Shown here: piece by piece, positions 18,694 to 61,541 of the stretch | How positions within the stretch are numbered: position 1 is the stretch's first letter | Layout of the letters: every line of letters starts with the position of its first letter | DNA from: Ananas comosus | Lineage: Eukaryota > Streptophyta > Magnoliopsida > Poales > Bromeliaceae | DNA: 64,000 nucleotides | Assembly (NCBI RefSeq): GCF_001540865.1 | Contig: NC_033632.1 | Location: 7,798,737 to 7,862,736, forward strand | Reading direction: 5' to 3' | The notes under the pieces: generated by a model | Told to the model about the DNA's origin: nothing | The model's database searches: none | What the model saw: only the letters and a program-made list of their open reading frames with translations | Position numbers and translations under genes: made by a program

Positions 18694-20101
18694 TGTTAAG
18701 GATTTTTTATGTTGGCGGTTTTCATGAAGTTCAAATGGAGTCTTGAAGCTTTAAAGACGGTGATTGATGAGAAGATTGGATTTTGACGACTAAAGACTCA
18801 TTTGCAATGCTCGAGATCTCAGGTATGAAAGATAAATAGTTCGTGGTGAATTTCTATTGTTAAAATGTGTTTAGAAAACTTAGTTTTCTTTGCTATTGAA
18901 TAATCTGGACAATCTGAACCTATTCTGGTTCAGGGACCGCTCCCTAAACAAGAGACCGGTCCCCGTAGGTCTTCTCGATCCCTGCAAAAAAGATGTAAGA
19001 GACCGGTCTGTGGAACGAATGACCGGTCCCCGTACACTGGACTCTTTGCTACTCAGGGAGGGACCGGTTCCTACAGCGAAGGACCGATTCCCGTAGCCTG
19101 TATTTTTGTGTACGCAGAGAGGGACCAGTCTCTAGAATGAGGTACCGGTCCCCGTAGCTTGGTTTTTCTATGCGCAGAGGAGGACCGGTCTTTGGAACGA
19201 GGGACCGGTTCCCGAAGCTTATGTTTTTAGCTACGCAGAGAAGGACCGGTCTTCACAACGAGGGACCGGTCTATGTAATCTGTGGTTTTTGCTACGCAGC
19301 GAAGGACCGGTCTCTGGCTTGGAGGACCGGTCCCCCAAGGATCGGTCTCCTCGGGAAGACCGAATCCTGAGACCGTTGTCAATCTTTAAAATTGTGTTTT
19401 TGAAATTCTAGTCGATCTAGCAGTCTTCTAAACCTATATATATGATATAAGGAGCCCATATGATGTAAGTTTAGAGAGAAAAGCTTTTTGAAACCCTAAG
19501 AGCTTGTTTTAGAGTTTTCGATCAATGTTTTGAAAATCAAGTTTTTGGTTTTGATCACCGATTCAATTCTTCGATTCCAATTTCAATGGTTCTTTAAGAA
19601 TTAGAACGGTGATGAACTAATTAGGGTTTCTCCTCACATCATATGTTCTTTCTAAGTGTTTCAATCACCACAAATTGTCAATCGTAACGAGCTTCGGATG
19701 GAGCGGATGCGCATGGATCTCGGGTGAAGCCGTGGATTCGGTGGGCGTTTTGTGGATTCGAGGCGTGTTTGCTGCGAGGGCTTGCAGCGTGATCGGTTGA
19801 AGGAGTTCGATCAATCGACCACCGGCGAAGATAATCTACAATGAGGATTCGGTAAATTGAGTTGTGTATTTTCGGTAAATCACTTGTACTCAATTGTTTC
19901 TATAGTGTATTTTTCGCGTGATTGGTCCCGTGGGTTTTTCACTCCGGATTGGAGTTTTCCCACGTTAAATCTTGGTGTTTGGTTTTATTTTTCGCTATTT
20001 ACTTTTATTTTGCATCGAGAGTTTTATTTTTGCCATTTACACCTATTCACCCCCCTCTAGTTGTTATTTACCTTTTACATCCTTGGGATCCATATCTTAC
20101 A
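18694..20101 (+). mobile_element. SIRE-type Ty1 solo LTR
   Basis: TGTTAAGGATTTTT...CATATCTTACA with a perfect target duplication ATAGT (18689-18693 and 20102-20106). It is homologous, inverted, to the LTRs of copia B (23756-24977, 47284-48219). It includes the ACCGGT array (18935-19375), a TATA-like TATATATA at about 19435 and ACCTATTCACCCCCCTCTAG near the 3' end, a motif shared with LTRs A and B. Confidence 0.92.
18935..19375 (+). repeat. 60-bp tandem array of ACCGGT palindromes
   Basis: About seven degenerate units of roughly 60 bp, each with two copies of a palindrome GGACCGGTCC or close variants spaced about 20 and 40 bp, with a link resembling TTGCTACGCAGAG. It lies 240-680 bp from the LTR start and just before a TATA-like sequence. 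Confidence 0.85.
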
Positions 20102-22059
20102 ATAGTAGCAATAACAGATAAATAAGGAGCAATAAATAAACTTGCTACTGTATAGAAAATAATGCTAAGAATGCCTCAAGGTAATCAAACCAAAACTGTA
20201 CCCAATCTGGTGCCTGCTATATCGGTCCGCAAACCTCAAGCGCTGCCTGTCACTAATCTGCACCGACCTGATTCATCCATCCCACAGGACGACCCATCCG
20301 GATAAGTACACCTCCGATCGGTGGCCAAACCGATCTGGTGTCATGAATACCCCCAAGTGTTGTGACTAAGTCATGCTAATATGCTCAAACAAAAACCGGC
20401 TGAAGCCGGTGACTAGGCCAAAGCCAGAAACAAGGGCGTACAACGCCGAACCATAATAGATATTAGGGCGTACAACACCGAACCATGATCAACTAGATCG
20501 AAACACACGACAAGAGAGTCGATGTGTTGCCTGGACCCAACGTCCACAAAGATGCAAAGTACAAATGCAAACCTGCTTTACATGTCTATCAACCACAAAC
20601 CGATGCAGCCAAGAAAGTAAGATATACGAATGATAAACAAGCAATGACATGTAGAGACTATAATGCTAGAATAGAAAAACAAGGAAAGGTAAAACGATCT
20701 CACCGACTACCAGCTCGAAGCACCCACCTGTACTACTGTCACACCTATCTCCCAACTGTACACGATCGTCAACCGGACCTGCGAAGATCCACCGGGTCAG
20801 TAACCAACCCACTCACCCAAATTACGAGACTCACAAACCCCCACACAAGTCCCTGAATCGGTCTTCCCAAAACCGATCACCGTAACTCATCGGAAGTCCC
20901 GAAAAGCACACCAGGACGCCGTCGGGACCCACTAAGTGTCCCGAAACTCACCAACTCATGCCACGAGCCACCCGCTGCCACAAAACACACCGATTTGGAT
21001 GTCTTGGCAGCAAACATAAGGTAACACAAACCAACAATTATCGTCGGATAATTATTCGGATCCGGGTTTTCGGAAGTGTCTATTTCGACACCGGAACCGA
21101 CCGTCACTCACCCGTCACCACCGAACCCACAATATGATGATGGTGACCAGCTAACAAGGCTCAGCGACAATTCACAGGACAACCAAACAACGTCGGAAGA
21201 AATCCGAACCGAAACCGCGTTCTTTCGGCGAATTTTGCCGAAAAACGCACCGAAATCGACTTTTCGATTTCCGCGAAAGCTATCGGATCATCAACAATCA
21301 GTCCAGAGGTCACCACACACACATACACATTGCCCACAGTTGCACAAAAGCGCTTGTATTTACATAAAATCCCAACATTTTATGTAAATCAAGCGATAAT
21401 ATGGCTCGTTCATGCAAACCGAGGACTTTCGAGGCCCACCGAGACACGCACTGATAGGTCTCGATGTGCCGGAGGCCGTGTTCACGATCCGGAGCACGAC
21501 GGCCCACTGTGGGAGGCGTAGGAGCGACCGGAAAGTTCTGCGAACAACGCGCAGTCAGGAAAAGTCGCATCGAACAGGCCGATACGACATCCGTTGATCC
21601 AAAGTAAGGTGAGCACTGTGATCAACACAATGGAGACAACAAACCCATCATTTCGTTTCACCTCGATCGGTCACGGATTTGCGACGAAATCCAATCTCTC
21701 TTCAAAAGACGAAAAGAGACACTTATACATATAAACATGTATTTTCAGATTTTCTCGAAATCCGTGGATCAAACCCAAAATCCGTCAGCGCTATTAGTTC
21801 CAGAATAGCCGAATCGTTCGAAACGAACTATTGGATCGCTATGAACGGAGTCCGATACGCGCTAGAAGCCAACTTCACACCGTGGCTTCTCCGGAAAACT
21901 GAGTTACTATTCACTTTAATTGAATCTTAGAGATTGCGTAAAATCTCCATTCTAACTCGTTTTCTCCGGAAACTTGACAAGTGCTTTTGTAATTAAATTA
22001 CGCACAAAAATATCGTCAATAGAGAGTTTAGCTACACTGCCAAAATCTCAGTCCTTATA

Positions 22060-23755: not shown

Positions 23756-24977
23756 TGTGTGATATGGATCCCAATGATCTAAAAGGTAAATAACACCTAG
23801 AGGGGGGAGAATAGGTGTAAACGGCAAAACCAAAATTCTCGATGCAAATTCAAACTAAATGCGAAAAATTAAAATCAACACACCGAGATTTTACATGGAA
23901 AAACTCCAACTCGGAGTAAAAAACCCACGGGACCAATCACACGAAACAATCCACTATTAAAAATTGAGTACAAGTGATTTACCAAAATACACGACCTAAT
24001 TTACCGAAACCTCGTTGTAGATCGTCTTCGCCGGTCCTCGATCGATCGAAGTCCTTCAACCGATCACGCCACAAATCCTCGCAGCAACAACGCCTCGTCT
24101 CCACGATGCGTCCACCGAATTCACGGCTTCACGCGAAATCCACGCGCACACGCTCCATCCGAAGCTCGTAGAGATTAATGATTTGTGGTGATTCAAAAAC
24201 TTAGAAAGATCATATGAAACGAGGAGAAACCTTCTAATTCATCACCGAGTCGATTCCCAAAAAACCATAAGATTTAGAACCAAAGAATCGAATCGGCGAT
24301 CAAGAATGAAAAACTTGTTTTTCAAAACATAGATCGAAACTCACAAAAACAAGTTTTAGGATTTCTAAAACGTTTTCTTTCTAAGCTCCTTTCATATGAT
24401 ACTCCTCATAACATATTTATAGGTTTAGAAGACTTCTAGATACATTAGGATTTCAAAAACATGGTTTTAAAAACAAACGACGGTCTCAGGGTCCGGTCCT
24501 CCCGGAGGGTCCGGTCCTCCAAGGTTTGGTCCTCGAAGCTAGGGACCGGTCCCTCTGCGTATTAAAAAAAAACAAGCTACGGGTTCCAATCCATCGCTCC
24601 AGGGTCTAGTCCCTCACAGCGAAACTTAAATTTCAATGTACGGGGTCCGGTCCCTCTGCCCACGGACCGGTCCCTCGCAGTCATCCAGCTGAGAAGACCT
24701 ACGGGGTCCGGTCCCTCTGTCCAGGGACCGGTCCCTGAACCTTGAAAGGCTCAGTTTTGTCCAGATATTACATTTTAAAACCATCCTAAGTCTTCCAAAC
24801 ACATTTATGAACAAAAAATCTCACCACAAATTATTAACAGTCATACCTGAGATTCCGAGCATCACAAACGAGTCTTTTGATCTTGAATTACTAAATCGTC
24901 TCTTCAATCTTTGTCTTTAACTCTTCAAGACTCCATTCAACTTCACAAAATTCGCCAACTTAGAAAAATCCTTAACA
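23756..24977 (-). repeat. 3' LTR of copia B
   Basis: In sense TGTTAAGGATTTTTCTAAG...GATCCATATCACACA. Contains variants of GGGACCGGTCCC at 24481-24735, a TATAAATA sequence at about 24415 (sense downstream of the array) and CACCTAGAGGGGGG near the sense 3' end (about 23793). Confidence 0.92.
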
Positions 24978-24989
24978 ATCTCCCCTTTT
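24978..24989 (-). other. Polypurine tract of copia B
   Basis: In sense AAAAGGGGAGAT directly before the LTR start TGTTAAGG. Confidence 0.85.
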
Positions 24990-25586: not shown

Positions 25587-26908
25587 CTACTGCTCACGAT
25601 AAACCGAGGAAACCGACATATCCTCAGAAACATCCTCAGAAGGCTGTGAAGGGCCTGGAGCAGCAGGAAGTGGAGTGGAGCACTGCTGTGCAGAACTACG
25701 TGGAGGAGAACACCGCGTAGGAGAGCGGAGCTGAACTAAAGACTTGATGAAAGTAGTCTCACTTATCATGCCAAGACTATGCTCATATGAAACATATCGA
25801 GTATCCACCCCATGACTCCACAGAATGCGCAAAATGATCATCGGATATGGCAAACGCTCATTCTGACTAGAAGTCTTAATATCCTTCGCCATCCTAAGCC
25901 AAATCAGGAAGGGAACATTGAGATTAATCCCTCGGGCACGTACCACATCCGAGTGTCCGAGCAGATACATATATAAAAGTTGCTCCCATCTAACCACCTT
26001 CGTATTCATTAAAGGCAAGATGTTGTAACAGACAACAAAATTTAGAAATCTGTACTCCACTTTCAACTCCTTGGACATAACAGAAACACCAGTGGAGACC
26101 GTGTCGGGCACACAAACACCATTCACGATTCGGCGCCAGTCCTGAGTTGAATCAAAACCAGCATGCAAGTAATCCACACCGTCAGTCCTAGCCTCCATGT
26201 TAAGAACAGAAGCCACAACATCTGGCGTAATATTCAAAGCCACACCACGGACAGACGTCTTGAAAGCATACGGGCCACCTTCAGAATCTTCCAAATAGCC
26301 CGCCCGCATGTAGAATTCCTGTATCAACTCTAAACAATAACCGGTCTGTTCGGAAATATTGCATATCTCATAAAGATCGCCGTTGTTAAAAAGAGCTTCA
26401 AAAGCGGGCACGTGTTCAACCAAGTTTTGAACGCCAATAGCATGCTCACCAACACACTGTTTTGATGAATACATGGCATGCCGTTTCGGATCAACTGATG
26501 CTTCTTGTGGAATACTTCGGCGTGGAGGGTCGGAAGCCGGTTCATGAATCTCAACTCCACCAGTTTTTTCTTACCACGGGTCGAAGGCAATTTCCCCTTT
26601 CCCTTCCCTTGACCCGCGGGCTCTTTTGCTTTCTCCTTTCCCTTTTTCTTGGAGAGAACTTCAGGAGCCAGAGCTTCCCAGTCAGTCGACTCAGTCTCTG
26701 ACTCCTCCCTGGGGGCATACTCATTGCCCACATCCTCAGCTGGTTGCTGAGCAGAGGAACGACGGCGCTTACCACCACCACCACCACCAACCATTAAGAA
26801 CAAAAGAACCAGAAGCAGAGAAGACATCTTGAAAGAAACCCCTATTTTAGAACAATTTTTGAAACAAATTGAACATATGAATATCACTCTTTCATAAATT
26901 TTCCTCAA
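25587..26908 (-). pseudogene. Extra ORF of copia B in the env position (frameshifted)
   Basis: Two overlapping frames (26908-26330 and 26474-25587) form one ORF broken by a frameshift near 26460. From the internal ATG at about 26827 it begins MSSLLLVLLFLMV, then a Gly run, KRRR, and an acidic/Lys-rich tract (KKKGKEKAKE). The C-terminal domain has VPAFEALF, LIQEFYMR, ITPDVVASVLNM, SKELKVEYRF, VRWEQLLYMYLLGH and INLNVPFLIWLRM, followed by a Ser/Pro-rich tail. It shares this whole plan with the ORF at 38119-39006. The domain resembles, from memory, the 'putative plant transposon protein' family; biochemical role unknown. Its place between RNase H and the 3' LTR is where SIRE elements carry their env-like ORF. 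Confidence 0.75.
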
Positions 26909-27409: not shown

Positions 27410-27421
27410 GGGACCGGTCCC
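27410..27421. promoter_or_regulatory. ACCGGT palindrome upstream of extra ORF
   Basis: GGGACCGGTCCC, the same arm type as in copia B LTRs, about 500-590 bp upstream of the ORF start. Confidence 0.55.
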
Positions 27422-28531: not shown

Positions 28532-28630
28532 TGTCACGCACTGAGGTCCCTTTTTAGTTTAAAAACACAGCAGAAGTGTTAAATTTTTTTTTTTTTGTAA
28601 CCTGACCTCGAGGGTATGCCAGATTCGCCA

Positions 28631-30760: not shown

Positions 30761-31148
30761 TGTCACGCCCCGGGACCGGCGGAGGCCCTCCCGGTAGCGT
30801 GCCCAGACCCGCCATATGTCTACACATATAAGGCGTCTACGATAAAAGCGGAAGTAAAAGCAAGAGATAGAACAAATATAAGAAATGAAATAACTAGCAA
30901 CTAGTGATATCAGAGCAAGTAAAGTTCTATCATCTACACCAAAGTAAAGAAATAAAGCTAGTCAAACAAAGNTCTCTCCTTCCAGGGACCGGTCCCCGAG
31001 AGTAAAAACTCTCAGGACTTGTCCAAAGTTCCAGATTTCGAACTTTTCGGGTCGGGGAACATTTTACAACCCTCCACCAAGTGTGGAAAAGCTCGAAATA
31101 CAACCAAACACTCGAACCTCGCAATTTGCAAAGGTCCAGTGTGTTACA
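30761..31148 (-). mobile_element. Solo LTR, gapped (N at 30972)
   Basis: TGTCACGCCCCGGGACC...CAGTGTGTTACA with perfect target duplication GCCTC (30756-30760 and 31149-31153). Its sister at 59277-61735 is 2459 bp, so about 2 kb is missing at the N. Contains GGGACCGGTCCCC at 30985-30997 and a small stem ATATGT/ACATAT at 30814-30829. Confidence 0.9.
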
Positions 31149-36476: not shown

Positions 36477-38118
36477 TGACAAGGTAAGGAAAGAGTTCAC
36501 CTTTGCGCACCCAAACCTTACGTGTTTTGGGTTGCGTTGGCCGACTTGATTGAGACATGAGTTGCTTGTCGACGATTTGTGTATTTATCTTCTTAGGATC
36601 ATCCTTCTTCGGTTTTCATGTTTGCATGGCCTTCGTTTTCATCGGTGTCGAGGTACTCTTCGGTTTTTGTTTGCAAGAGCGTTTCACATGACTTACAACA
36701 CCACATAGATGACAAGTTTTGTTAGCAAAAATATTCTTAGGAGGGATAAACTTACCGTAAACCTTGGGAACCGATTTCATCAAGTGTTCGTCAACTTTCT
36801 TCATCACTTGATCAACGTAAGTCCTTTCGTATCCAAGTCCAAATTTATTGATTTGACCAAGTTCTAACATTTTATCAATTTTGCTAGACCCAGACGAAAA
36901 TTTATTTAAATCCGATTTGAGTTGAATAATCATCTTGGTGAATTCTATGTTTGATTCTCTAGCTTCCGTATATTGCTTGGTAAGGAAATTAATATTCTCA
37001 ACATGTGTTTCATTTTCCTTCTCAAGCAATGCACACTTGTCAAATAATGAGTTGTAGGACTTAGTCAAACCGCCTTTTTCCTGCGCTAGACTTTTTATCA
37101 GTGATTCCAATCTAGTGTTGTCTTCTTCCAGATCGTACAATCTTCGCCGCGTCTTCTTGTTGTGTTTCGCCATTTTCTTTGATTCAACAACAAGTTGATG
37201 ATATGCGGTGGTCATATCATCTTCCTCCGACTATTCATCTGATGAGTTCTCCGACATAGATTTTTCATGCAAAGGAGACATAGAAATAGAGTCAGTAGAA
37301 GCTAAACACATAAAAGAAGAATCATGTGCAATAAGTGCAGTGGCATTAATATCCTCATCACTTGAGGTTGACTCATCAGTTGACAAATCGTCCCAAGTAA
37401 TGGCTTGCATCGCCTTCTTTTTCAAAAAATTTTTATTAGGACAATCCAATATAATATGACCAAATCCTTTACACCTATAGCATTGGATTTATCCTTCAAC
37501 ATTCTTCTTTTCTTTTGAAAAATCTTTTGATGATCTTTCGGATTTTTTAAACTTAAAAGTACTTCCTTTTGATTTCTTTTGCTTGGAGGAGGTCGATTTG
37601 AACGGTAGTTTCTTCCTAAAGTTTCGACCAAACTTCCTTGTTAGAAGCACCAGTTGCTTTTCAAACTCCTCCAAGGTTACGTCTGGGTCCGAATCGGATG
37701 ATGATGTCAAGTCGTCTCCTTTTGTTGATTTTAAGGCCATACCTGAAGCTTTAGAAGACAACTTGGAAGAAGATGAATTAGAAGAAAAAATCATTTCATA
37801 AGTTTGAAGCGCACCAACTAATTCCTCTACTTTTAATTCATCTTGATGTTTTACCGCTTCTATAGCCGCAACCTTTGGACGAAATCGTTCGGGAAGGGTT
37901 CTTAAAATTTTTCGAACTATTTTAGGTTCAGAAATCTTTTCTCCCAAGTTAGCACACGTATTTACAATATCTTGAAGACGAGTATAATACTCAGTAAAAG
38001 TTCATGTTCTTCGATGTGAATAGAATCAAATCTACTAGTTAACATTTACAATTGTTGAACCTTTACCAAGCTTGTACCCTCGTGTGTAACTTGTAAAGTG
38101 TCCCAAATTTCTTTGGCG
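36477..38118 (-). pseudogene. Copia B gag, main part
   Basis: Begins with AKEIWDTLQVTHEGTSLVK directly at the junction with copia A and runs through three broken frames (37947-37489, 37449-37231, 37215-36616). Features in order: RKILRTLPERFRPKV, VEELVGALQTYE, a Ser/Asp-rich linker, zinc knuckle CYRCKGFGHIILDC (about 37490-37440), a coiled coil (about 37190-36900) and a second knuckle CHLCGVVSHVKRSC (about 36720-36680). A zinc knuckle on either side of a coiled coil is also found in copia A. Confidence 0.88.
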
Positions 38119-39006
38119 TGCACCCTGAATCACGTGTATCATCCTTTGCCAGATCAGAAACGGGATGTTGATGTTCAACCCATGAGCCTGCTCGGGATGA
38201 CCAAGAAGATATAGCAATACTAATCTCTCCCAACGGATCCTCTTCGTGCCGATGGTTGGTTGAACATTGTAGCTCATGACCAAGGATAGCAAGTGGTACT
38301 CAGGTAATAATTCCTTAGATTCTATGTAACCATGAGTCATGTGAACACCGGGCTTGCATATAGCTCCAAGAACGATATCCAAGTGAGTTGACGATTGGAA
38401 TCCTCCTGATGTATAGAGAATACCTGTAGTGTCCACATGCATTCCCAAGATCTCTCCAATAGTATAGGGAGTAACTGGGACTCTCTTCTTACGCACAACA
38501 GTCTCAAAAAGAAAAGTGCCTGTCTCCTCGTCTTCAACAAGTACCTTTCCACGCATATAGAACTCCCGAATGAGTTCCACATAGAAGGGAGCCTTGGCAG
38601 AGACCCGTCCAACTGGCTCAATAGGTGCGTGCTCTAGCAGTCGTCCAAAAGCAGGAACATCCCGAAACAGGTCATTGAAGTTCTCGAAGCGTTTAGCTAT
38701 GCACGACTTCGACATATATAACCTTTGGCGTGCTGAAGGGACATCCGCGGCTCGTTTTGTACGTCCCTCACGCGTACGAGAACCACCGCCATGAGATGAT
38801 TCGCCCACAACACCCTTTCCTTTAGCAGCTTGAGTCGCCGCTTCTTTTGATTCTTCCTGCGAGCTTGCTTGATACTCCGGATATGAACCGGACTCTCCTG
38901 TAGCAGCACGGTCTCTCTTTGAGGTTCCACGTCGTCCTCGACCACCACCTCGACCACGACCGGTGGCCATAAGCACCAAAAGTAGGATCACGAGCGAAAA
39001 CGCCAT
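38119..39006 (-). pseudogene. Extra ORF of copia A, C-terminally truncated
   Basis: Open from ATG at 39006. N-terminal hydrophobic FSLVILLLVLM, then Gly/Arg-rich TGRGRGGGRGRR and a Lys/Glu-rich stretch. The domain shared with the copia B ORF follows: VPAFGRLLEH, ELIREFYMRG, VTPYTIGEILGMH, AICKPGVH, SKELLPEYHLLSLVMSYNV, IRWERLVLLYLLGHPE and LNINIPFLIWQRM. It is cut at about 38120, where the frame runs into gag of copia B. There is no stop within about 295 codons, so it decayed less than the pol remains nearby. Function unknown. Confidence 0.78.
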
Positions 39007-40543
39007 TTCCTACATGAAAATGAGCCATTTATGAAGAAAATTTTGAAATATCTGTAAAAATAGCGAAAAAATATCTGATAATCTTAGAATGCATACCAAC
39101 GCTATTTCCAACTCATTCATGCAAAAAATTTCATCAAAAAATTGATATTGCACCAAAATCCCGAAATTCCATGTATTATGATATAAGGATCATAGATTAG
39201 CGAAAAATATAGCATTATAACCTGATCTAAGTGTTCTAGAAGCAAGATAATGTCCTTAAGCACTGATCTACAGCAAAAAATTGCATCAAAAACGATTAAA
39301 AACAGAGATTTAGCTTCAACTCGGAATATTTTCGAAAAATAAACATGAGCGCGATGAAACGATTAAATCCAAGCTAAATACTCACAAATTTCTGAGGGAA
39401 AACGTGTAGATCTGCAAGAGGAAGGCACCAGGGATTTTTAGAGAGAGAAAGAGCGAAATTTGATTTTGATTTGAGGCAAAATGAAGCGCTATACCCGGTT
39501 ATAAGCCGCTCGGGTACAAACCTTGTACTGGTACACGAGTTCTTGTACCGGTACAAGGACCAAAATGTGAAAATTTTTTTTTTAAAAATTATGCTTTAAA
39601 AATCCATCACATTTAAATAAATTCATACAAATTAAGGATTTAACTCCAAAAATTATTATAATGAAGGTAAAATATTATAAGATCTCAAAATACATCGAAA
39701 CATCCAAATTTTATTATCAAAAATGATCTCAAGATTCAAAATCATCAAGATGTAACGGTTTACGAAAAATGATTTTAGAAATTTGGCAAAATTAACACCA
39801 ATTTGTCGCAATCCGTTCAAAATAGAGACACCGGAGGTGGCTCTTTGAGTATCTTTTCAACTTACCACCTTATAACTCCGAAAATTCTAAAATAGTCAAA
39901 TTTTTTTTCAACCTTTTTCGGTTACACAATTTAATCTTCATGTGGTAGCTTCACACACTTGCCGGACGACCGGGGTGGTAGCTCTTTCCTACATGTGGTG
40001 GTAGTTTTCACACTCCTTTTGGATGTAACTCTTTCCACATCTTTTTAAACATAGGAGTTTTCTTTTTTTAAAAAAAAAAATCAAACTCCCCCTAAATTAG
40101 ACAATCTCACAATTGAAAATATTTTGACAAACGCGAATATCTATCTATCATATTCAACACACACAACCAAGATGAATAAATCATCAAGAGATCAAATTTG
40201 ATTTCAAAATTTTGATGAATATATGCATTAAGAAATCATATATTAAATTATCGTCAAAATAATAAAAAGTGGAGTAAAAACGATAATTAATATGAATTTA
40301 ACTTAATATGATTGTGAAGATAAAACCCGTTTAAACAATCTTTGAAACATTTCTCTCCTCAAAAAAAAAGATTCTGAATTATCTCCTCTCTCAAAAATTT
40401 TGAAATTCCCAAATACCTTTCCTCAAAAATGATTTTTAACCGAATAAAAACCAAAGCACCAAAAATCGTCTAAACATGTAATGCAATGATTAAAAATATG
40501 CAGTAAGCACCTATCAAAGCACTACACAAGAAATCAAAAACAA
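39007..40543 (-). other. Spacer between gag and extra ORF of copia A
   Basis: AT-rich, non-coding. Contains CTTGTACCGGTACAAG (39542-39557) plus a variant at 39523, about 540 bp upstream of the ORF start, and the conserved block 39938-40052. Confidence 0.7.
39938..40052 (-). promoter_or_regulatory. Conserved non-coding block in the SIRE spacer, copy 2
   Basis: Matches 27910-28022: the same order of CATGTGGTAGCT, GGACGACC, GGGTGGTAGCTC, CATGTGGTGGTAG and GATGTAACTCTTTCC on the plus strand. Confidence 0.65.
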
Positions 40544-42080
40544 CTAAGACGAGAAGCAAGGAAAGATATCACCTTTCCGGATCCAAACTCGTCGGATCTT
40601 TGGTTTTCTCGGCTTGTCGACATTTGGTGCCATTTGCTTAGATTTAAGATCAACCGTTGGTGTTTTCTTCGCTTGAGGCTTCGGTTGAACTTGTCTTTTA
40701 GGCTTAGAATTCCGGTTTGCAATAGGATTCGGTCGGATTTTGCGTTGCGCATTCAATCGATCTTTCTTTTGATTCCTTGGTGGATGTCGAGTTGAAGGTG
40801 ATGTCGATTGAGGTTTAGACATTGCCGATTGATTCTTTGTTTCCTTATTTGAGCAATTCCTTTTAATGTGTCCTTTCATGCCACATTTATGACATACCTT
40901 CTCTTTCGAAATTGTTGAGACTTTAGAAGTTGATTTTGAATCCTTCTCAACGTATGTCCGTTCATAACCAAGGCCCATCTTGTTTGTTTGACCCAATCCA
41001 AGCATTTGATCCAATTTCTTAGATCCCGAAGAAAATTGTTGAAGATCGGATTGGAGTTGACGAACTTGATTGGTCAATAATTTGTTGGATGTATGCAATT
41101 CTTCATATTGATGCTCCAAAAATCCAACTTTATCTTTATAAGAGTTAATCGTTGATTCCGCTCCATTAAGCTTCTCTTGGAGGTCCAAATTATTTTTCAA
41201 AATTGATTCTCTTTCCTCCTCAAGAGCTTTGTTCGTTGTCTTCAAGTTGTTGTTTTCCTCTTCGAGATTCAACAAACGACGCCTCAACTTCTTATTAAGT
41301 TTAGCCATCTTCTTTGATTCAATAAGAAGTTGATTGTATGCTTCCGCTATGTCGTCGTCGTTTGATTCCTCCTCGCTTTCGCCATTGTCGCTCGAAGAAT
41401 CATGCGAAGAAAGAGAAATATTGGAATTAGTATCAATGGAGGATAAACACACAATGTTAGACGAAGGCAAGGTAGATTTAGCAAATAAAGCAAGATTTCC
41501 ATTCTTTTCTTCATCACTTGAACTTGAATCACTTGAAGTTGTATCATCCCACGTCTTTGCTTGCAAAGCCTTTTGTTTATAAGCCTACTTTGAAGGACAA
41601 TCCGTCGCGATGTGGCCGTAGCCTTTGCACTTGTAGCATCGGATCTCGCCTTCAAATTCTTCCTTTTCTTTTGAAGCCTTTGCACGCTTCTTCTCGTTAG
41701 AAGATGGAGACTTAGAAAACGTTTGTTGCTTTGAAGATGAAGGTTTATTCGATTTGCTCTTTTGGAAATTTCGGCGAAACTTTTTTGTGAGAAGCGCAAG
41801 TTGATGTTCAAAGTCGGCAAGCGATACATCTTCATCAGATTCCGAATCGTCTTCTTCTTTCTTTGTAGATTTCAATGCAACCCCTGTGCTTTTAGAAGAA
41901 GACTTGACAAAAGATTGATTAGTAGGAAAAGTCATTTCATAAGTTTGTAATGCACCTACTAATTCCTCGACTTTCATCTCGTCCGGATGTTTGACCGTTT
42001 CGATCGCGGTTATTTTAGCCCGAAAACATTCCGGAAGAGTTCGAAGAATTTTATGAACAACTTTAGCATCTGGGATCTTC
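40544..42080 (-). pseudogene. Copia A gag, main part
   Basis: Continues the gag interrupted by the solo LTR at 42081. It has VHKILRTLPECF, VEELVGALQTYEM, zinc knuckle CYKCKGYGHIATDC (about 41635-41590), one TAG near 41584, an acidic Ser/Asp tract, a coiled coil from about residue 80 to 200 of the frame 41566-40544 (NKKLRRRLLNLEEENN onward), a second knuckle CHKCGMKGHIKRNC, and a Lys/Pro-rich tail ending RVWIRKGDIFPC. Only one stop besides the insertion, so it is better preserved than gag of copia B. Confidence 0.88.
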
Positions 42081-42547
42081 TGTCATGCCCCGCGACCGAC
42101 CGCCTATTTGGCCGGGTCGCGGCGCCGCAACAGACCGCCGAACGGACAGGGTTTCCCCTGTACCGCGGACAGAGTCTCCCCTGTACATTCAAGGCGTCGC
42201 AATAAATATAATGTACAAAGTTCCAACCAGGAACACATTTCAATCAAAGATTGCATAAGAAAGTATCAAAAACATAATCTACTTGTTATTACAAGCATTC
42301 ACATTCACTAGATACATTTTACATCACAATTACTTATTACATTTAACTTCCAAATACAATCAAGCTTTTATTACAAATTATTACAACTTGATTCTTTTCA
42401 TTTTCTTACATCCCTAAGTAAAGGCCGACTCGGGGTACCGCTATCTCTGGTCTCGGTGGTAGGGCGCTAACTATGATGCTACGCCCTCGCCTCGCGCCGC
42501 CGCGCCGCTCACGTGTGAACCTGTAACACCCCAAAACCACGTGGGGT

Positions 42548-44835: not shown

Positions 44836-44975
44836 GCGTACCGGTACACGTCCCACGCGTACCGGTACACGGGCTGGTGTCACCGGTACACGACTCGCGC
44901 AACAGCCAAACCCGAGGCCCATCTTCTCGAATTTTACACTGCGTACCGGTACACGAAATCCTGTCACCGGTACAC
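44836..44975. promoter_or_regulatory. ACCGGT palindrome array in solo LTR
   Basis: Three copies of GCGTACCGGTACACG and two of GTCACCGGTACAC, 325-465 bp from the sense start of the LTR. Confidence 0.6.
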
Positions 44976-45299
44976 ACCCTTTTTTTCAGGACTTAGCCAA
45001 TTTTTCAGCATTTTTACCGTTTTCGCTCGTTTTCGCTCTTTTGACATCTGATTCGTTTCAAATCGAACCGAAACTCTCCAAATATGTTTTCAAGCATGTT
45101 TTCATCATCTTTTCATCCACGCTAATGCTGGATTTAGTCCATGGTCCAACATAGCCTTTCGGGTTCCGTTTTCGCACCTACGCGCACCGAAACGCCCGAT
45201 TACTCCAAAACTTCACCGAACTCCACCGGGACCATTCAAATGGCTTTTCAACTAAATGTACACCGTAACTTGAAAGTTTTAGAAGTTCGATATGTTACA

Positions 45300-45777
45300 T
45301 CTTCTCTCCCAAATTAGCACATGTGTTAATAATATCTTGAAGTCTAGTATAATAATCGGTGAAAGATTCATGCTCCTCCATACGAATAGAATCAAATTGA
45401 CTAGTCAACATTTGGAGCTTTTGAATTTTTACTAAACTAGTACCTTCATGTGTAATTTGTAGAGTGTCCCAAATTTCCTTGGCGGTTTCACACGCCAAAA
45501 CGCGAGTAAACTCCGTTTGTGACAATGCATTAAATAAAGCGTTTATGCCCTTGCCATTAAACGAAGATGACTCGTTTTCATCTTTCGTCCACTTGGTCCG
45601 TGGTTTTGGCGTTTCAACATTCTCAACATTTTCAATAGGATGTTTCCATCCAAATTCAATAGATTGCCAAACGCGCTCATCGATTGCAATTAGAAAAGCT
45701 CTCATGCGAACTTTCCAATAGGCATAGTTTGTGCCATCGAAAAGCGGTGGTCGATTAATGTTTCCACCTTTGGCCAT
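45300..45777 (-). pseudogene. Copia A gag, N-terminal part
   Basis: Starts MAKGGNINRPPLFDGTNYAYW at 45777, only about 22 nt from the primer site, and runs 160 residues through the UBN2-type gag domain (RVWQSIEFGWKHP, ACETAKEIWDTLQITHEGTS, FDSIRMEEHESFTDYYTRLQ). It is cut at LGEK by the solo LTR insertion; reading resumes in frame at 42080 when the insert and one target copy are ignored. Confidence 0.92.
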
Positions 45778-45799
45778 TAGATAACAATTTATCTAGATC

Positions 45800-45813: not shown

Positions 45814-45815
45814 AT

Positions 45816-47022
45816 TGAAAGTTTTGAAGAGCCCAAGGATCTATTTAGATTGTATCTATCACCTAGAGGGGGGTGAATAGGTGAAATAGCCAAAAACCAC
45901 AAATCTCAATGCGATAAAAATAAATGCGAAAAATAAAAATCACACCGAGATTTACGTAGGAAAACTCCAATTTGGAGAAAAACCTACGGGACCAACACGC
46001 GAAAAAATAATCCACTAAGAGAAAAGATTACAAGGTGATTACCGACTCTACGGACTCAACCTCTCTTAACCTCCTATGGATCTCGCGCAATCCTCCGAGT
46101 TGTCCACGCCCTCACGTTCGAATCCACGAACGCCTCGCACACATCCAAATCCACGAACGCCACTCGAATCCACGAGCCCATGATCCGAATCCACGAACCG
46201 CCGTCAATCACGCCGAATCCACGACGCCATCATGAAAAACATCATGTGTATGGTGATCCTTTGCTTAGAGTATCGATGAAAACCAGGGAAGCGAACTCCA
46301 AGCGAAGCGGAGATCAAATCGACATATTGATATGAAAATCCAATCTCTCGATTTGACCTAAAAGAGGCTTTTTGTAGAAAATAGATTTTAGATGAAATCC
46401 GAACCTCTAGGGTTTCTCAAACATGTATTTTCGTGATGCTTAATATGTTAGAGAAGCCCAATAGCTTATTTATAGACTTTAGAATCAAACCGGAGTGGGA
46501 TTAGAAAGTTTCTTTCTATATTCAGCACCTTGTACCGGTACAAGAGTAGCTGTCCAGGGTACAGCATGACGGAAGATTTTTCTGTGAAGCTTCTGTACCC
46601 TGAACAGACTGCAGCTTGTTCCGAAACAGGTCTTGTACCGGTACAGCCATGATGGCTGTACCGGAACAACCATAAAAAAACTCAATGGCAATAGCCGATG
46701 TCTGTACCGATACAGCAACACCCTTGTACCGGTACAACAATGCAATTTTCGCTGAAAATGTATTGTTTCGAGTTTTACAAGCTCTTAGAAACTTTCTAAT
46801 CAATTACAACTTGAAAATTATGATTCTAAGATCTATAATTAAGTATGAATCACCATAAACAAGATTTAAAGCTTACCTAAGCATCGTGATTCAAGTTTTG
46901 CGTGTTTTGCGTCCTTTCCGATTCTTCGAAGTCTTGAATTCTTCGATCTTCAATACTCCGCTCCGGACTTCTTCAAGACTCCGACTCGACCCACGAAACT
47001 TGCCAACACATAGGACCTAACA
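45816..47022 (-). repeat. 5' LTR of copia A
   Basis: In sense TGTTAGGTCCTATGTGTTGG...CTTCAAAACTTTCA. Its array of TGTACCGGTACA-type palindromes is at 46529-46737, with TATAAATA at about 46475 downstream in sense. CACCTAGAGGGGGGTGAATA near 45861 is shared with copia B LTRs. Confidence 0.92.
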
Positions 47023-47273: not shown

Positions 47274-47283
47274 CACGCACACA

Positions 47284-48219
47284 CTCGATCGATCGAAGTC
47301 CTTCAACCGATCACGCCGCAAACCTCGCAGCAACAACGCCTCGTCTCCACGATGCGTCCACCGAATCCATGGCTTCACGCGAAATCCACACGCACACACT
47401 CCATCAGAAGCTCATAGAGATTAATGATTTGTGGTGATTCAAAAACTTAGAAAGATCATATGAAACGAGGAGAAACCTTCTAATTCATCATAGAGTCGAT
47501 TCCCAAAGAATCATAAGATTTAGAACCAAAGAATCGAATCGGCGATCAAGAATGAAAAACTTGTTTTTCAAAACATAGATCGAAACTCACAAAAACAAGT
47601 TTTAGGGTTTCTAAAACGTTTTCTTTCTAAGCTCCTTTCATATGATACTCCTCATAACATATTTATAGGTTTAGAAGACTTCTAGATAGATTCGGATTTC
47701 AAAAATATGGTTTTAAAGACAAACGACGGTCTCAGGGTCCGGTCCTCCCGAAGGGTCCGGTCCTCCAAGATCCGGTCCTCGAAGCCAGGGACCGGTCCCC
47801 TCTGCGTATCAAAAAAAAACAAGCTACAGGTTCCGGTCCCTCGCTCTAGGGTCCGGTGCCTCACAGCGTAACATAAATTTCAACGTACGGTGTCCGGTCC
47901 CTCTGTCCACGGACCGGTCCCTCACAGTTATCCAGCAAGAGGACCTACGGGGTCCCTCTGTCCAGGGACTAGTCCCTGAACCTTGAAAGGCTCAGTTTTG
48001 TCTAGATATTACATTTTAAAACCATCCTAAGTCTTCTAAACACATTTATGAACATAGAATCTCACCACAAATTATTAACATTCATACCTGAGATTCTGAG
48101 CATCACGAACGAGTCTTTTGATATTGAATTACTCAAATCGTCTCTTCAACTTTTGTCTTCAACTCTTCAAGACTCCATTCGACTTCACGAAATCTGCAAA
48201 CTCAGAAAAATCCTTAACA
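47284..48219 (-). repeat. 5' LTR of copia B, truncated at its sense 3' end
   Basis: Matches 24030-24977 closely, including GGTCCGGTCC variants at 47735-47970. It lacks the approximately 280 bp next to the primer site. It ends in CCTTAACA at 48219 followed by GGTCG. Confidence 0.88.
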
Positions 48220-49364: not shown

Positions 49365-52300
49365 TGTCACACCCCGGGGCCGATTTTAAAAGCCTTTTTA
49401 TAATGGATACAAATTTTGAAATCAGAGTTGCGGAAAATGTGCCAATTTTTCTTTTATTTCAGCCTGGCCCACGTGACATACAGATCCGCCACAAATACAA
49501 AGTTCCTCTGGTCACATAGACAAAGTCTCCTTTGTATTTGCACGACGTACTAACAACAACATCAGGATCAAAACAACAACCTATATTTACCAATCCACAA
49601 TCAACTCATACCATGCCATTTCATATAGCTACTGATCCTTAGAAATGATGCATGCCTCTAAGCACTCCTTAGGCGTTGAATGATGCGATGCACAGTACAA
49701 CAGTCATCCTATTTAAAAATGCTTCCCACTCGGAAGCTGTATTTTTAAACTCTATTTAACCATCCATAAAACCATTCGAAAATTTTTTTAAAACTGTTTC
49801 CTGCTCGAAAACTCCATTTTGAAAACTGACTACCTCGAGGGGTAGAAAACCATAATGCATAAATCCAATACCAAGATGCATAAATTTTCAATTGCATGCA
49901 TAATAAAGAAACCTCAACTCAACCCAATTTACACATACTCAAACAGCACTATTGATCATCTAACTGGACCATTCATTATTAAAACTACTAAGTGCGGTAA
50001 TGAAACATAGCCAGCGTGACGATTGCTATTGCAGTCTAGCTAGTACGTCCTCCCGTCGTGCCAAAAAGTCAACTCCTTGTCCGAACCACCTGAAAAAATG
50101 GGGGGTGAGAAACCACAATCAAAGTTTTCCAGTGAATACGACAGAGCCAAGAAGGCAAGTCGTAATCACCGAAAAATAAAGGAGATAGAACAATAGATAT
50201 GGTATGTTATAAGAGCAACTACAATAATAATAGAAGCAGAATAGTAAATGAGCAAGAATCAAACAACTACTGTAACAGAAACTCAACTGAATAGATGCCT
50301 CAAGGTATATAATCCAAAACCAAACCCAATCTGGTGCCTGCCATATTAGTCTGCAGACCTCAAGCGTTGCCTGTCACATTGCTTGCACCGACCTGATTCA
50401 TCCGCCCACTAGACGACCCATCCGGATAAGTACACCTCCGGTCCGTGGCCAAACCAACTTGGTGTCAATGAATAAATCCAAGTGCTATGACTAAATCATG
50501 CTGATATGCTCAATGCGAAAATCGGCGGAAAGCCGATGCCTTGGCCGAAGCTAGATACAAGGGGGTACAATGCCGAACCACGATCAACTAAATCGAAACA
50601 TACAACAAAGGTGTCAATGTATTGCCTGGACCCAAAGTCCACAGATATACAATATATGTAAGCCTACTCTACATGTCTAGCCACAACTATCATCATGCAA
50701 TCAACAAGATATAGATGAACGAACAATAAACAAAATAACTGACATGTAGAGACTACAATGCTGATATAGAAGAACAGAGGAAAATGAAATGATCTTATCG
50801 ACTACCAGCTCGAAGCACCCACCTATACCGTACGAAGTACATGGGTTGTCGACCGCTTGCCGCTGCCTTCCGCTATCACCCGGACCTATGCATAGTCGCA
50901 ACGAAGCCGTAATTAGCCTAAACATGTAAAGTACTAACGCCTTAGACTCGACGTGATTTTAATAGTTGACTAAACGGACTTTCCCAGTTTTCGACCGATG
51001 GTCACCGAAGAATCATCCGAATGCCACGCCGATTCGACGGAATGTCGCACCAACACACGGGGTGATCCGAAGTATACACCACAGCTATTCTACACTGCCC
51101 GCTACCCCAAAGCATCATTTTAATGCCCTTGGGACAATCGCTCAATTAGTGCGCTAAAACAAAAACTCGGGATTTCGGAAACTAGCCGTTTGGCTTCCGA
51201 GGTGCCGTATTTGGTCCCGGAACCCTCCATGGCTTTTTTTGCTGCAAACCAGGGTGTCCAACCTTCCCCCAGCGCTTCAGAAATCAGCCACAAGCCTGCT
51301 GTGAACAGCAACAGCAAATACGACGCGAGATCGCACCCGAAATCGCCCGAAATTTGCATTATCGAGCTCTGTTGAGCCTCGAAACATGCTAAAACATTCC
51401 AGATCTAATCCTAGCTTATTTGCTGTCCCCAAACACTCAGTTTTCGGCAGCGGAATAGCAGCACATCATTTGGTGCAAGAGTGATTGATTCTAAGCGGTC
51501 TATGTCACGACTGGGGTCCCAATCGTTGCCGTTTAGGCTCCAGAAACCTCCAATTCGCAAAGCATCAATTTGTGAACCCCAAGGACTCACCAACCTCTGC
51601 CCAAGAGGTCTAACACTCACTACAAACAGCAGCAATGCAAGTCCTACAACCGAAGCCTAAAACAAGGCTCCACGACACCTACAACGTCAATAAATGCGCC
51701 GATTGCCCCCGATAATCGAACCATGGGGTTTTCGGGTATCGGATCTTGAATGACAGCATTACTATTTCGATACCCATGCTGCCAGGAGCAGCCACAATGC
51801 GAAAGCATCGCTGCGATGCAACGATGTGCATTTGCGCGCAACAAACGGCATTAAACGGACGATAGCTACGACAAGTGCGTGAATAGAGCCTTACCGATGC
51901 TCCAGGGACCACGGGAACTCAGCGAAAGTGAGATCCACGTCCTCTTGTAAGTGCTGGACTCCTCTCTTAACAGTCCCAAATGAGGATCGCGCTCGCTGCG
52001 CGGCGAAACTACAAACATTGCCTTATCGTAGCATGCGGACGATAGATCGTCGCGATCTGCGAACCGGCCGAGAAATGCTATGAATCCAGGTGAGCCTCGT
52101 GATGTAAAGGACGAGTGAGGGAGAGTGCTTACCTCAGTTACACCCCATGTGGTTCAAATCTGGTAGGAACGCAAATCGGTCTAAGACAATGCTTCGAACG
52201 CGGCTGCTGGATTGCTTCTTCTCAGCAGTAGTTTTTCAGCAGTTCGCAGCAGTAAAGGAAAGCTTGGGAGGGAAGATGCAGGTTGGAAAAGATTCAAGGA

Positions 52301-54021: not shown

Positions 54022-56275
54022 AGAGTCTCCTTTATATTTGCACGGCGTACCATCAACAACATCAGGATCACAACAACAACCTACATTTACCAATCCACAA
54101 TCAACGCATGCCATGCATTTCCATACAGCTAGCGATCCTTAGAAATGATGCATGCCTCTAAACACTTCTTAGGCGCTAGATGATGCGATGCACAGAACAA
54201 TAGTCATCCTATTTAAAAGTGCTCCCACCCGAAAGCTTTATTTTTAAACTCTATTTAATCATCCATAAAACCATTCAAAAACTTTTTTAAAACTATTTCT
54301 TACTCGGAAACTCCATTTTGAAAAGCGACTACCACGAAAGGTAGAAAACCACGATGCATAAATCCAATACCAAGATCCATAAATTTCTAATTGCATGCAT
54401 AATAAAGATAACTCAACTCAAACCAGTTCACACATACTCAAACAGTACTATTGATCATCTAACTGAACCATTCAATATTAAAACTACTAAGTGCAGGAAT
54501 AAAACATAACCAAGGTGACGATCGCTACTGCAGTCTAGCTAGTACGTCCTCCCATCGTGCCCAAAAGTCAACTCCTTGCCCGAACCACCATCAAGGTTTT
54601 CCAGTGGATACAACAGAGCCACGAAGGCAAGTCGTAATCACCGAAAAAGAAAGAAGATAGAACAATAGATATAGTATGATATAAGAGCAACTACAGTAGT
54701 AATAGAAGCAGAATAGTAAATAAGCAAGAATTGAACTACAACTATAACAAAAACTCAACTGAACAGATGCCTCAAGGTATATAATCCAAAACCAAACCCA
54801 ATCTGGTGCCTACCATATTGGTCTGCAGACCTCAAGCATTGCCTATCACATTTATTGCACCGACCTGATTCATCCGTCCACTGGACAACCCATCCGGATA
54901 AGTACATCTCCAATTGGTGGCCAAACCAATCTGGTGTCAATGAATTCACTCAAGTGCTGTGACTAGATCATGCTGATATGCTCAATGCAAAAACTGGCAG
55001 GAAGCCGATGCCTTGGCCGAAGCCAGATATAAGGGCGTACAATGCCGAACCACGATCAACTAGATCGAAACACACGATAAAGGTGTCGATGTGTTGCCTA
55101 AACCCAAGGTCCACAAATATATAATATATCCAAGCCTGCTCTAAATGTCCATCCACAACTATCATCATGCAGTCAACAAGATATAAGTGAAAGAACGATA
55201 AACAAAACAACTGACATGTAGAGACTACAATGCTGATATAGAAGAACAGAGGAAAGTGAAACGATCTCACCGACTACCAGCTCGTAGCACCCACCTATAC
55301 TGTACGAAGTACACCAGTTGTCGACTGCTTGCCGCTGCCTTCCGCTATCACCGGGACCTAAGCATAGTCGCAACGAAGCCGTAATTAGCCTAAACATGTA
55401 AAGTACTTAACGCCTTAGACTCGACGTGATTTTAACCGTTGGCCAAACGAACTTTCCCAGTTTTCGACTGACGGTCACCGAAGAATCATCCGAATGCCAC
55501 GCCGATTTGACGGAATGTCGCACCAACACACGGGGTGATCCGAAGTATACACCACAGCTATCCTACACTGCCCGCTATCCCACAGCATCATTTTAATGCC
55601 CTTGGGACAACCGCACAATTAGTGCACCAAAATAAAAACTCGGGATTTCGAAAACTAGTCGTTTGGCTTACGAGGTGCCGTATTTGGTCCCGGAACCCTT
55701 CATGGCTTTCTTGCTGCAATCTAGGGTGTCTAACCTTTCCCCGGCGCTTCACAAATCAACCACAAGCCTACTGCGAACGGCAGCAGCAAATACGACGCGA
55801 GATCGCACCCGAAATCGCCTGAAATTTGCGTTATCGAGCTCCGTTGAGCCTCAAAACATGCTGAAACATTCTAGATCTAATCATAGCTTATTTGTTGTCC
55901 CTAAACACTCAGCGTTGGGCATCGGAATAGCAGCACATCATTTGGTGCAAGAGCGATTGATTCTAAGCGATCTATGTCTCAACTGGGGTCTCGATCGTTG
56001 TCGTTTAGGCTCCGGAAATCCCCGATTCGTAAAGCGTCAATTTGTGAAGCCGAAGGACTCACCAACCTCTGCCCAAGAGGTTTAACGCTCACTGCGAACA
56101 GTAGCAATGCAAGTCCTGCAACCGAAGCCCAAAACAAGGCTCTATGACACTGTCACGCCTCAGGGTTCTTTTGTAAAGCCATTTTGAATGAAAGGGCAGG
56201 TTGAAATAAGGTCAGCGAAAAATGCCCATAATTTTTTTTTTTTCAACTTGTTCCCAGGACGTAACAGACCCGCCA

Positions 56276-56325
56276 CAGATACAAAAATCTCTATGTCCAC
56301 ACTGGCGAAGTCTTTCTCATATCTG
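56276..56325 (-). promoter_or_regulatory. U5-type stem-loop
   Basis: Arms CAGATA (56276-56281) and TATCTG (56320-56325): the same position as CAAATA/TATTTG in sister LTRs, a compensated change. Confidence 0.55.
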
Positions 56326-59300: not shown

Positions 59301-59693
59301 AGCCCGCCCGGCACGTGTCCAGACCCGCCATACGTCTAAAATATATAAGGTGTCTAGTATAAAACGATAAATAAAGCAATGATAAAAGAACATCTAGGAG
59401 TATCAGAGCAAAGTACAACTAGATTCTACAATAGAGAAATAAACAAACAGCTAAAATCCACTAAGAAAGAACCATAAAGTAGTACAACAAAATCCAAATA
59501 CAAGTGCTAAGAGAAATACAATGGTGGTCTCTATACATAGGAACAAGACTCTCCCTCACCAAAACTCAAAAGAGAGTAAACCACCTAGGAGCAAAAGTAA
59601 GCTCCGCTATCTAGCTACGCGACCCCTTTGCCACGATCCCGTGCCTCCACCGGTGCTGAAGGCTCTGAAATAAAATCATTAAACAAAGGGCGT

Positions 59694-59726
59694 GAGAACT
59701 ATTAAATAATAGTTCCCAGTGGGCAA
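59694..59726 (-). promoter_or_regulatory. Conserved LTR stem-loop with CAGTGGG flank
   Basis: Arms GAGAACTATT (59694-59703) and AATAGTTCCC (59708-59717); the only mismatch is a G-U in minus-strand RNA. Followed by AGTGGGCAAT. Confidence 0.65.
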
Positions 59727-61359
59727 TTACTGACTTCAGTGAAAAGCTGGCTAGGCTCGAAAACTAAGCAGGTAAGTGCGAATAAATAAGCAATATGAAT
59801 AACAAGTATTTAAATATAAATACTTACTATACCATGATATCTCTACTTAGCATGAATTTGCATAAGTATGATGCTATTCTAACATGTATATGCATGAATA
59901 TACAACCAACATGATAATCCCAATGTAATCTGTAAGATGTCATTGTTTACTATTCTAGTCAATGCCCACTTGGCATGTTATATCACTAGAATCCCAATCC
60001 TGTAGGACCTACCCGTAGGTAGTCTGGCCTGCGCCGTGCCTAATGGCCCCGTAGTAGTCAACATCCCCACTCTAGGAATGAACCTCCCCCACGGCATCCC
60101 ATTTTGGCGCCCAATCCCGCACTGGCGAGCATGTGTCGCGATGGCTATCTCCGGAGTGCCGGCTTGTAGGGAGCGACCCTCACAAGCATGTGCGAATGAG
60201 CACAATGGCAAGCAAGCGTAAAAGTCCGTATCAAGTCTCAAGTCATCATGTCTAAAACATGAAATGTAGCAAATATCTCAATGGCCTATCACTATGTCAT
60301 CATGTCTAAAACATGGAATATAGTCGATGTCACAATGGCCTATCACTATATCTCTACATTGCAGTTTAACAGTTTACTAGTTCGGTGCCCCTATATGGCA
60401 CTTTTGTTCGCTTTGCCCAAACATGAGTTAGGAGTTCAAGAGTACACAATTCTAGTTCTTTTCATCATATGAGAAATGTTTCCAACCCACAAGAAAGAAT
60501 ACTACTCACACGCATGTATAATACACATAAGGCTCTACTATAAAGAGTTGAATTTTCATAATATATAGCGCATGCATTTTAAGTATTCTAAAATTCATAT
60601 AAATCCTATCTAGCATGAATATGCATGCGATACGATAAACGAAAACATTTAATCACTTAGGAGAAGATTTCTCCTATTCTAATGAAGTCAAACCTACCGT
60701 GACTCTCGCAACCCTTCGTTTCGCCGAACGAAGTTGCCCACTACTCTCCTAGCACCCTAAAGGTAAGGAAAAGAGAGATACACGAACGTTACGAACAATT
60801 CTAAGATCGATCATTAACCAACTCAAGCAAAAGGGCGAAAACTCACCGAATGCGAAGAAACCTCTCTCGATCTCCAAAAGGGAATTAGAGGCCCTCTAAT
60901 CCAATCTAAACAAAGGTTCTAAACCAATCAATTTGGTTCCAAAAGCCTCAAATCCAAAATTCCCAAAATAAATCCTAATTTCCAATTCTAGGGTTTCATC
61001 TAGTAGAATCTACTAAAACATGAATCAAAGAGAAGATTAAGTTTACTAACCTCACTAGAAGCTTCAAATCACCCAAGAACCCGGCTAGAGTTGAAGATCT
61101 TCCCTCCACAAAGCTCCAATCACGAGCTCAAGGCTTCTCCCATGGTGAAAACCAACAAGAAGCAAGAAAAAGCAAAGAGGAGGAGATAAAAACTAGCTAA
61201 AATCCATCAAAAATAGAGAAGAAATCAAGAGGAAGAGGTCTCACCTTGCTCTCCACATTCTAGGGCTCAAAAGGGCACTCTGAGGGGGTTGAGGTGCTAT
61301 ATATAGAGTTGCAACAATTGCAAATACAACCCCTAACTAAAACAGCCCTTTCTGCAAAG

Positions 61360-61541
61360 GGTACCAGTACACGGGAAAGTGTACCGGTACAAACCTAGTG
61401 TACGTGCGAACCCGAGGCTCTGGTTGGCAGAAAAACCCATTTATACCGGTACAACCATCAAGGTGTAACCGGTACAACCATCAAGGTGTAACCGGTACAC
61501 TTTCTGTACCGATACAACCATCAAGGTGTATCGGTACACAG
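61360..61541. promoter_or_regulatory. ACCGGT palindromes with 24-bp tandem units
   Basis: TGTACCGGTACA-type palindromes, several in units of ACCGGTACAACCATCAAGG plus GTGTA, 195-375 bp from the LTR sense start. Confidence 0.6.

Follow-up and report, generated by a model that had tools for sequence, protein, structure and literature searches.

Arrays of CCGG-centred palindromes upstream of TATA-like boxes in Ty3- and copia-type long terminal repeats of pineapple

In a 64,000-nucleotide stretch of the pineapple (Ananas comosus) genome (contig NC_033632.1, forward strand, positions 7,798,737 to 7,862,736, or C12:7798737-7862736 in the genome searched; hereafter the window), the long terminal repeats (LTRs) of both Ty3-type and copia-type retrotransposons were found to carry arrays of 12-bp palindromes centred on CCGG, regularly spaced and situated between the LTR start and a TATA-like box. 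The palindromes bear mainly two kinds of outer arms, TGT (TGTACCGGTACA) and GGG (GGGACCGGTCCC), each of which occurred on Ty3 and on copia-type LTRs. Counts over the 381,958,007 bases searched confirmed that the phenomenon is real and far bigger than the 64-kb window. We consider that the arrays probably serve as enhancer or operator platforms of the unique 3′ (U3) region, built from sites for cooperating dimers and equipped with family-specific arms, a proposal that is drawn from the arrangement of the sequences.

Abundance, position and spacing of the palindromes

An earlier sequence-only reading of the window had drawn attention to ACCGGT-centred palindromes in LTRs of both superfamilies, and sites were present at all the places it named. 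The hexamer ACCGGT occurred 38 times in the window, as compared with a mean of 9.37 and a maximum of 17 in 100 dinucleotide shuffles. Forty of the 42 matches to the general motif fell within nine spans totalling 1,650 bp, these spans having been defined around already known arrays. Genome-wide, TGTACCGGTACA was counted 17,162 times and GGGACCGGTCCC 8,914 times, versus 384 and 188 for the respective reversed words. A third form, GGGTCCGGACCC (740 versus 11 for its reversed word), was originally meant as a control palindrome and was recognised as a form of the motif when it gave 82 matches in 12 copia-type copies described below; the other three control palindromes gave 4 matches together in those copies.

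The abundance was also seen in a sample of 20 stretches, each 10 kb long (200 kb altogether), that were placed at round coordinates without regard to the motif. Exact TGTACCGGTACA appeared 18 times, in 4 of the 20 stretches, as against 0.00 on average for each of 59 permuted palindromes, and exact GGGACCGGTCCC 4 times, in 2 stretches; when up to one mismatch was allowed, the latter rose to 27 matches versus 0.16 for 19 permuted palindromes. Among all 12-bp palindromes of the sample having at least two G or C, TGTACCGGTACA ranked first and GGGACCGGTCCC tied for second. A chance origin of the palindromes was ruled out by the dinucleotide shuffles together with the permuted palindromes. As for distribution, the mean density across the genome was 45 per Mb for TGT-arm and 23 per Mb for GGG-arm sites; since only 1 of 99 TGT-arm and 0 of 65 GGG-arm places, among the places listed, lay in the first 3.7 Mb of contig 1, the sites are scarce at the start of that contig.

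To describe the anatomy of the arrays, 34 arrays or single sites were sorted into 11 groups by their flanks outside the array (single linkage, 75% identity over 100 bp; 24 groups at 85%), with the overlapping duplicates L003-L005 and L007 dropped; in the analyses of order and spacing, one group was split by hand and the isolated site at 27410 was omitted, giving again 11 groups. Read in the sense direction, the array begins 158–331 bp past the LTR start and comprises no more than 13 sites, and a TATA-like box follows it at a distance of mostly 53–105 bp. The LTR start, located with words picked by the analyst, was identified in 13 of 17 arrays, and a looser pattern found the TATA-like box in 15 of 17, with a distance of 129 bp in one case and an extra match at 11 bp in one array. 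The arrays lie, in other words, in the U3 regulatory region. The sequence-only reading had placed a TATA sequence 50–60 bp past five of the window arrays; the box was indeed present in each, at the less uniform distances of 55, 57, 68, 68 and 100 bp.

Within most Ty3-type TGT arrays, distal doublets were followed by CTCTCGGGTT and then by a proximal doublet; CTCTCGGGTT constitutes a second shared word in the U3 of Ty3-type arrays (for example at loci L029, L036 and L030). The word TCGGGTT was found in 7 of the 11 groups versus 0.65 expected (z 6.4), being the strongest among many words tried, while AT-rich words reached 8–10 groups in shuffles.

The spacing of the sites was found to be fixed. 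TGT doublets with a gap of 0–30 bp numbered 6,309 genome-wide versus 132 for the reversed pattern, and 58 of the 66 distinct doublets listed had their sites 20–23 bp apart, though 12–42 bp had been permitted; likewise, 25 of the 33 distinct spacers of listed TGT doublets gave 20–23 bp. These spacers fell mainly into an 8-bp class and a 10–11-bp class, with CATC or GATG in 8 and CCCG or CGGG in 5 of the 33. Distances between exact neighbours on contig 1 clustered at 20–23, 39–41, 50–51, 62, 72–74, 82–85, 94–95 and 105 bp, with exceptions at 17, 33, 65, 109, 114, 147 and 162 bp. For exact neighbours at least 30 bp apart, the best of ten periods tried was 10.75 bp (R 0.73, n=34), and family-unique distances of at least 30 bp gave 10.25–10.5 bp (R 0.49, n=31, p ~5e-4, uncorrected for the periods tried). 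The palindromes are hence set at fixed helical spacing, the fit being weaker below 30 bp and in copia-type copies. Random simple-sequence expansion, named in the earlier reading as a result that would speak against it, was checked in part and the reading stood: the spacing is fixed and the spacer sequences are diverse.

Retention in other copies and change of arms

Other copies of two families were retrieved with the LTR stretch downstream of the TATA-like box as bait rather than with the motif, one bait being taken from the copia-type family f4 and one from the Ty3 family f2. The f4 bait gave 40 scored matches, of which the 12 best were cut out, the window's own copies accounting for two. All 12 carried CCGG-centred arrays at the same place, with 3–8 sites apiece. 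The 80 centres in these copies were ACCGGA (34), TCCGGA (21), ACCGGT (19) and others (6), and the constant part of the family reads GGG-W-CCGG-W-CCC. Under a strict ACCGGT rule, 4 of the 12 showed one site alone, because the centres are often TCCGGA, ACCGGA or altered at CpG. ACCGGT, the centre given in the earlier reading, is thus not universal, and taken as an invariant core it excludes many copia-type sites. For f2, 40 matches were scored, one being the window itself, and upstream stretches were examined for 12 of the remaining 39, drawn from all along the list. Each of the 12 carried 4–6 TGT-arm sites (60 in total), with the register 22-40-62-20 exact in 4 and near in most others, a TATA-like box 53–57 bp past the last site in all 12 (one with an extra match at 33 bp), and a word of the CTCGGGTT type in 11. 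Three control palindromes gave no match in these 12 copies. Far from being absent in other members of their families, the arrays were therefore kept in every copy examined, and, together with the LTR starts and boxes given above, the Ty3 copies uphold the claim that arrays of both superfamilies occupy one U3 place upstream of a TATA-like box.

The number of sites per array differed among copies, and the window contains tandem units of 61, 23 and 21 bp. Both facts would agree with passive minisatellites, in which a palindrome arising by chance is expanded through slippage in reverse transcription and then multiplied, without function, as the family amplifies. We regard this as very improbable, for the same two CCGG words recur in two superfamilies, against several U3 backgrounds that are unrelated, the spacing is held at 20–23 bp while the spacers differ, and the place ahead of the TATA-like box is retained.

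The assignment of the arrays to superfamilies rests on adjoining coding regions. Ty3 reverse transcriptase (RT), RNase H and integrase domains stand beside the array in L020, and a Ty3 SH3_Tf2-1 domain in L036 and L009; the RT fragment of L035 runs on the other strand from its array, for which reason it may be part of another element. In the window, a copia gag at 45295-45792 lies downstream of the LTR with the 46.5-kb array. The f4 LTRs (18.9, 24.5 and 47.7 kb) are called copia-type because their 3′ part is 77–79% identical over 194–244 bp to the 45.8–46.0-kb stretch adjoining this gag.

The arms were found to change between homologous LTRs, in keeping with the earlier claim that they do not simply follow LTR descent. 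A GGG-arm LTR in L013 aligned to a TGT-arm LTR of the window on either side of the array, at 81.8% identity across the 66 bp in front and 70.7% across the 1,165 bp behind. A second GGG array in L013 adjoins a 730-bp stretch that is 80.5% alike to the part of L036 where Ty3 integrase sequence neighbours a TGT array. The LTR pair at 30.8 and 59.3 kb of the window, from which the claim had started, agrees with this (82% over 98 bp and 83% over 89 bp); as its single site at 30985 borders an assembly gap, that array may be truncated.

Of the 168 ACCGGT sites in the arm analysis, 43 obeyed neither arm rule; removal of near-identical sites reduced the TGT sites from 75 to 58 and the GGG sites from 50 to 47. 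Outside the 12-mer, the TGT sites displayed mirror symmetry at position -4 in 37 of 58 cases versus 20.8 by chance, and shuffling inside families likewise gave symmetry at -4 (49 of 84 versus 33.0) and -7 (39 of 84 versus 23.6). The extra symmetry of the TGT sites, together with the folding of six array stretches better than their shuffles (z -2.25 to -7.34), could point to RNA structure, namely that the 3′ U3 copy of the full-length transcript folds, a doublet forming a 12-bp stem with an 8–11-nt loop. Such stems would serve RNA stability, packaging or polyadenylation and leave the DNA sites as a by-product. We judge both parts of this proposal unlikely, inasmuch as any complementary arms would suffice for a stem, so that neither a constant CCGG across families nor self-complementary sites are required; the folding of palindromes is automatic and a loop need not stay at 8–11 nt; and outer symmetry was not significant at -5 and -6 of the TGT sites in the within-family shuffles and was absent from the 47 deduplicated GGG sites. 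Copia-type and Ty3 sites resembled each other in the flanks outside the 12-mer more closely than letter shuffles did, a likeness that decides nothing between convergence and exchange because the null ignores neighbouring sites; the arrays of the two superfamilies may have arisen by either route.

Retention was also assessed at the CpG dinucleotides. In copies not chosen by the motif, CpG was kept in 345 of 532 pair comparisons within sites versus 1516 of 3050 elsewhere, the pairs being not independent. A count of 117 of 139 in sites versus 430 of 981 elsewhere was set aside as biased, since some of its copies had been chosen by exact motif. The higher retention within sites, and the fact that CCGG is a methylation target, are compatible with an anti-silencing or chromatin platform, in which a host or element protein would read the arrays and keep the LTRs unmethylated or open, in the way that VANC proteins act on VANDAL transposons. 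The dense arraying of one motif in non-coding DNA, with altered forms in related elements, does parallel the targets of the VANC protein, as described in the portion of that article available (PMC5735166). We nevertheless deem it improbable that this is what the arrays are for, given that the short fixed distance to the TATA-like box fits a promoter element and that the CpG difference is modest.

Arrays and neighbouring features of the window

The arrays and isolated sites of the window are compiled in Table 1. Two entries, the isolated GGGACCGGTCCC and the TGT-arm pair, were absent from the list of the sequence-only reading.

Table 1. CCGG-centred palindromes in the window (positions of the whole stretch)
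Sites and element	Position	Strand	LTR start	TATA-like box	Remark
13 GGG-arm sites, copia-type LTR	18933..19334	+	~18709	~19435	
7 GGG-arm sites, copia-type LTR	24489..24735	-	~24978	~24420	
Isolated exact GGGACCGGTCCC	27410..27421	unassigned			
One exact GGGACCGGTCCC, Ty3-type LTR	30985..30996	-	~31149		adjoins assembly gap (N at 30972)
TGT-arm pair, 20 bp apart	39524..39555	unassigned			one site ACTGGT
5 TGT-arm sites, LTR interrupting copia gag	44837..44974	-	~45300	none found with patterns applied	
5 TGT-arm sites, LTR adjoining copia gag	46531..46736	-	~47023	~46474	
GGG-arm array, copia-type LTR	47735..47976	-	~48220	~47667	
7 TGT-arm sites, Ty3-type LTR	61360..61538	-	~61736	~61305	

The TGT-arm LTR at ~44.0–45.3 kb lies inside a copia gag, the fragments of which are at 45295-45792 and 41585-42082, and the copia-type LTR at 18693-20096, perhaps a solo LTR, interrupts a repeat common to 49365-51678 and 54024-56150. 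A further Ty3 LTR pair (1879-3460 and 8523-10059, 91% alike) contained no such site in its aligned part; the pair is bordered by gaps in the assembly, which fall within TA repeats at 3478 and 10066.

Two open reading frames for PF20167, a putative plant transposon protein, were located at 25587-26570 and 38035-39009, both on the minus strand, and the protein of the latter had 10 relatives, all from Ananas comosus and annotated as uncharacterized proteins. Neither Rfam at gathering scores nor a tRNA scan gave a match in the window. Elsewhere in the genome, locus L026 (4225-4283, 5672-6241 and 7132-7785) combines GGG-arm sites, a fragment of a MULE transposase and an exon of L-galactono-1,4-lactone dehydrogenase, the sites being ~1.4 kb from the fragment and 2.8 kb from the exon. 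In the genome collection, the TGT doublet with an 8–11-bp gap matched two prokaryote records only and no viral record; the TGTACCGGTACA doublets, one each in Bifidobacterium hapali (L038, 2506-2537) and a Dactylosporangium (L039, 2120-2151), are possibly bacterial operators.

Possible function and comparison with known systems

In the mechanism that we propose, each 12-bp palindrome would be bound by the homodimer of a sequence-specific protein, which would read CCGG together with the family-specific outer arms (TGT or GGG). Sites about two helix turns apart would bring neighbouring dimers onto one face of the DNA, where they could cooperate, and the resulting platform would stand ~50–100 bp ahead of the core promoter, the same design being employed by families of both superfamilies. 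We infer cooperating dimers on one face because the sites are palindromic, fixed in spacing across free spacers, in helix register and placed before the TATA-like box. The bound protein may be of host origin and would activate the promoter. Homologous LTRs have changed from one arm code to the other across the whole array, as if tracking related proteins with differing arm preference.

Several observations weigh against this dimer platform. No known factor matching both arm types was found, and the outer symmetry of the TGT sites goes beyond the need of a fixed protein site. No helix period was singled out for distances below 30 bp, where 14 bp fitted best and better than 10.5 bp; in the copia-type f4 copies 10.0 bp (R 0.64) beat 10.5 bp (R 0.51); and off-register spacings of 15, 17, 18 and 35 bp occur. 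A strict TATA pattern was present within 160 bp of just 8 of the 34 arrays or sites. Furthermore, copies within one family are not independent.

More tentatively, and with considerable doubt, it is conceivable that one arm-diverged set of proteins serves both superfamilies in one plant, with arrays re-tuned to its members while keeping CCGG, place and register. If such operator switching is true, families would compete for, divide or escape these proteins, in a VANC-like manner that spans superfamilies. One platform design, strictly spaced and with switching of arms, recurs at tens of thousands of sites in families of the copia and Ty3 types. It would provide a handle on the drivers of retrotransposon transcription in a bromeliad, and bears on the question of convergence versus exchange of regulatory sequence between unrelated elements. 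In addition, the doublet could be used as bait for protein discovery.

Repeated factor sites inside LTR elements are familiar from the U3 boxes of tobacco Tnt1 and from the array of Su(Hw) sites in Drosophila gypsy, which the pineapple arrays resemble in this respect; unlike them, each of those is, as far as is known, confined to one family, and the motifs differ. SPL/SBP proteins bind sites with the core GTAC, which occurs twice in TGT-arm sites and is lacking in GGG-arm sites. TCP factors were considered as binders of both arm types and rejected. The GGG-arm half site GGGWCC does fit the inner GGGNCC of the TCP sites GGNCCCAC / GTGGNCCC, as given in the accessible part of the source (PMC6892148), whereas GTGGGNCC needs a T before GGG and T stood at -4 in only 4 of 94 half sites, from the 47 deduplicated GGG-arm sites. 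By direct reading, the core GGNCC is present in GGG-arm sites and absent from TGT-arm sites.

For pineapple itself, the available part of a survey of LTR lineages names Del as the largest of them, and a term search of that part returned neither 'palindrom' nor 'motif' (PMC6022998). Among the titles listed from the literature searched, which leaves out most subscription journals, none reported such arrays.

Arrays in which dense short motifs occupy non-coding parts and take altered forms in related elements have been described for VANDAL, a group of Arabidopsis DNA transposons, where, according to the portion of the article available, the element's own VANC protein reads non-palindromic motifs in one orientation and the motif arrays evolve through tandem repeats (PMC5735166). 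Unlike these, the pineapple sites are palindromic, hold a fixed place in the LTR and occur in two superfamilies. The closest likeness in plant copia elements is to COPIA78/ONSEN and TERESTRA of the Brassicaceae, whose LTRs, in the text available, carry heat-responsive elements of nGAAn units bound by HSFA2, gained more than once according to the article's title (PMC5059998). Heat shock factor sites were rejected as an identity for the palindromes, as neither TGTACCGGTACA nor GGGACCGGTCCC contains GAA or TTC, a statement that covers the 12-mers. The pineapple arrays share with ONSEN and TERESTRA, as far as the same text goes, the clustering of short symmetric factor sites in LTRs, and differ in that their unit is CCGG-centred and is found in Ty3 as well as copia-type elements (PMC5059998). 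Clusters of factor sites in LTRs, such as the ONSEN heat elements, are thus already known.

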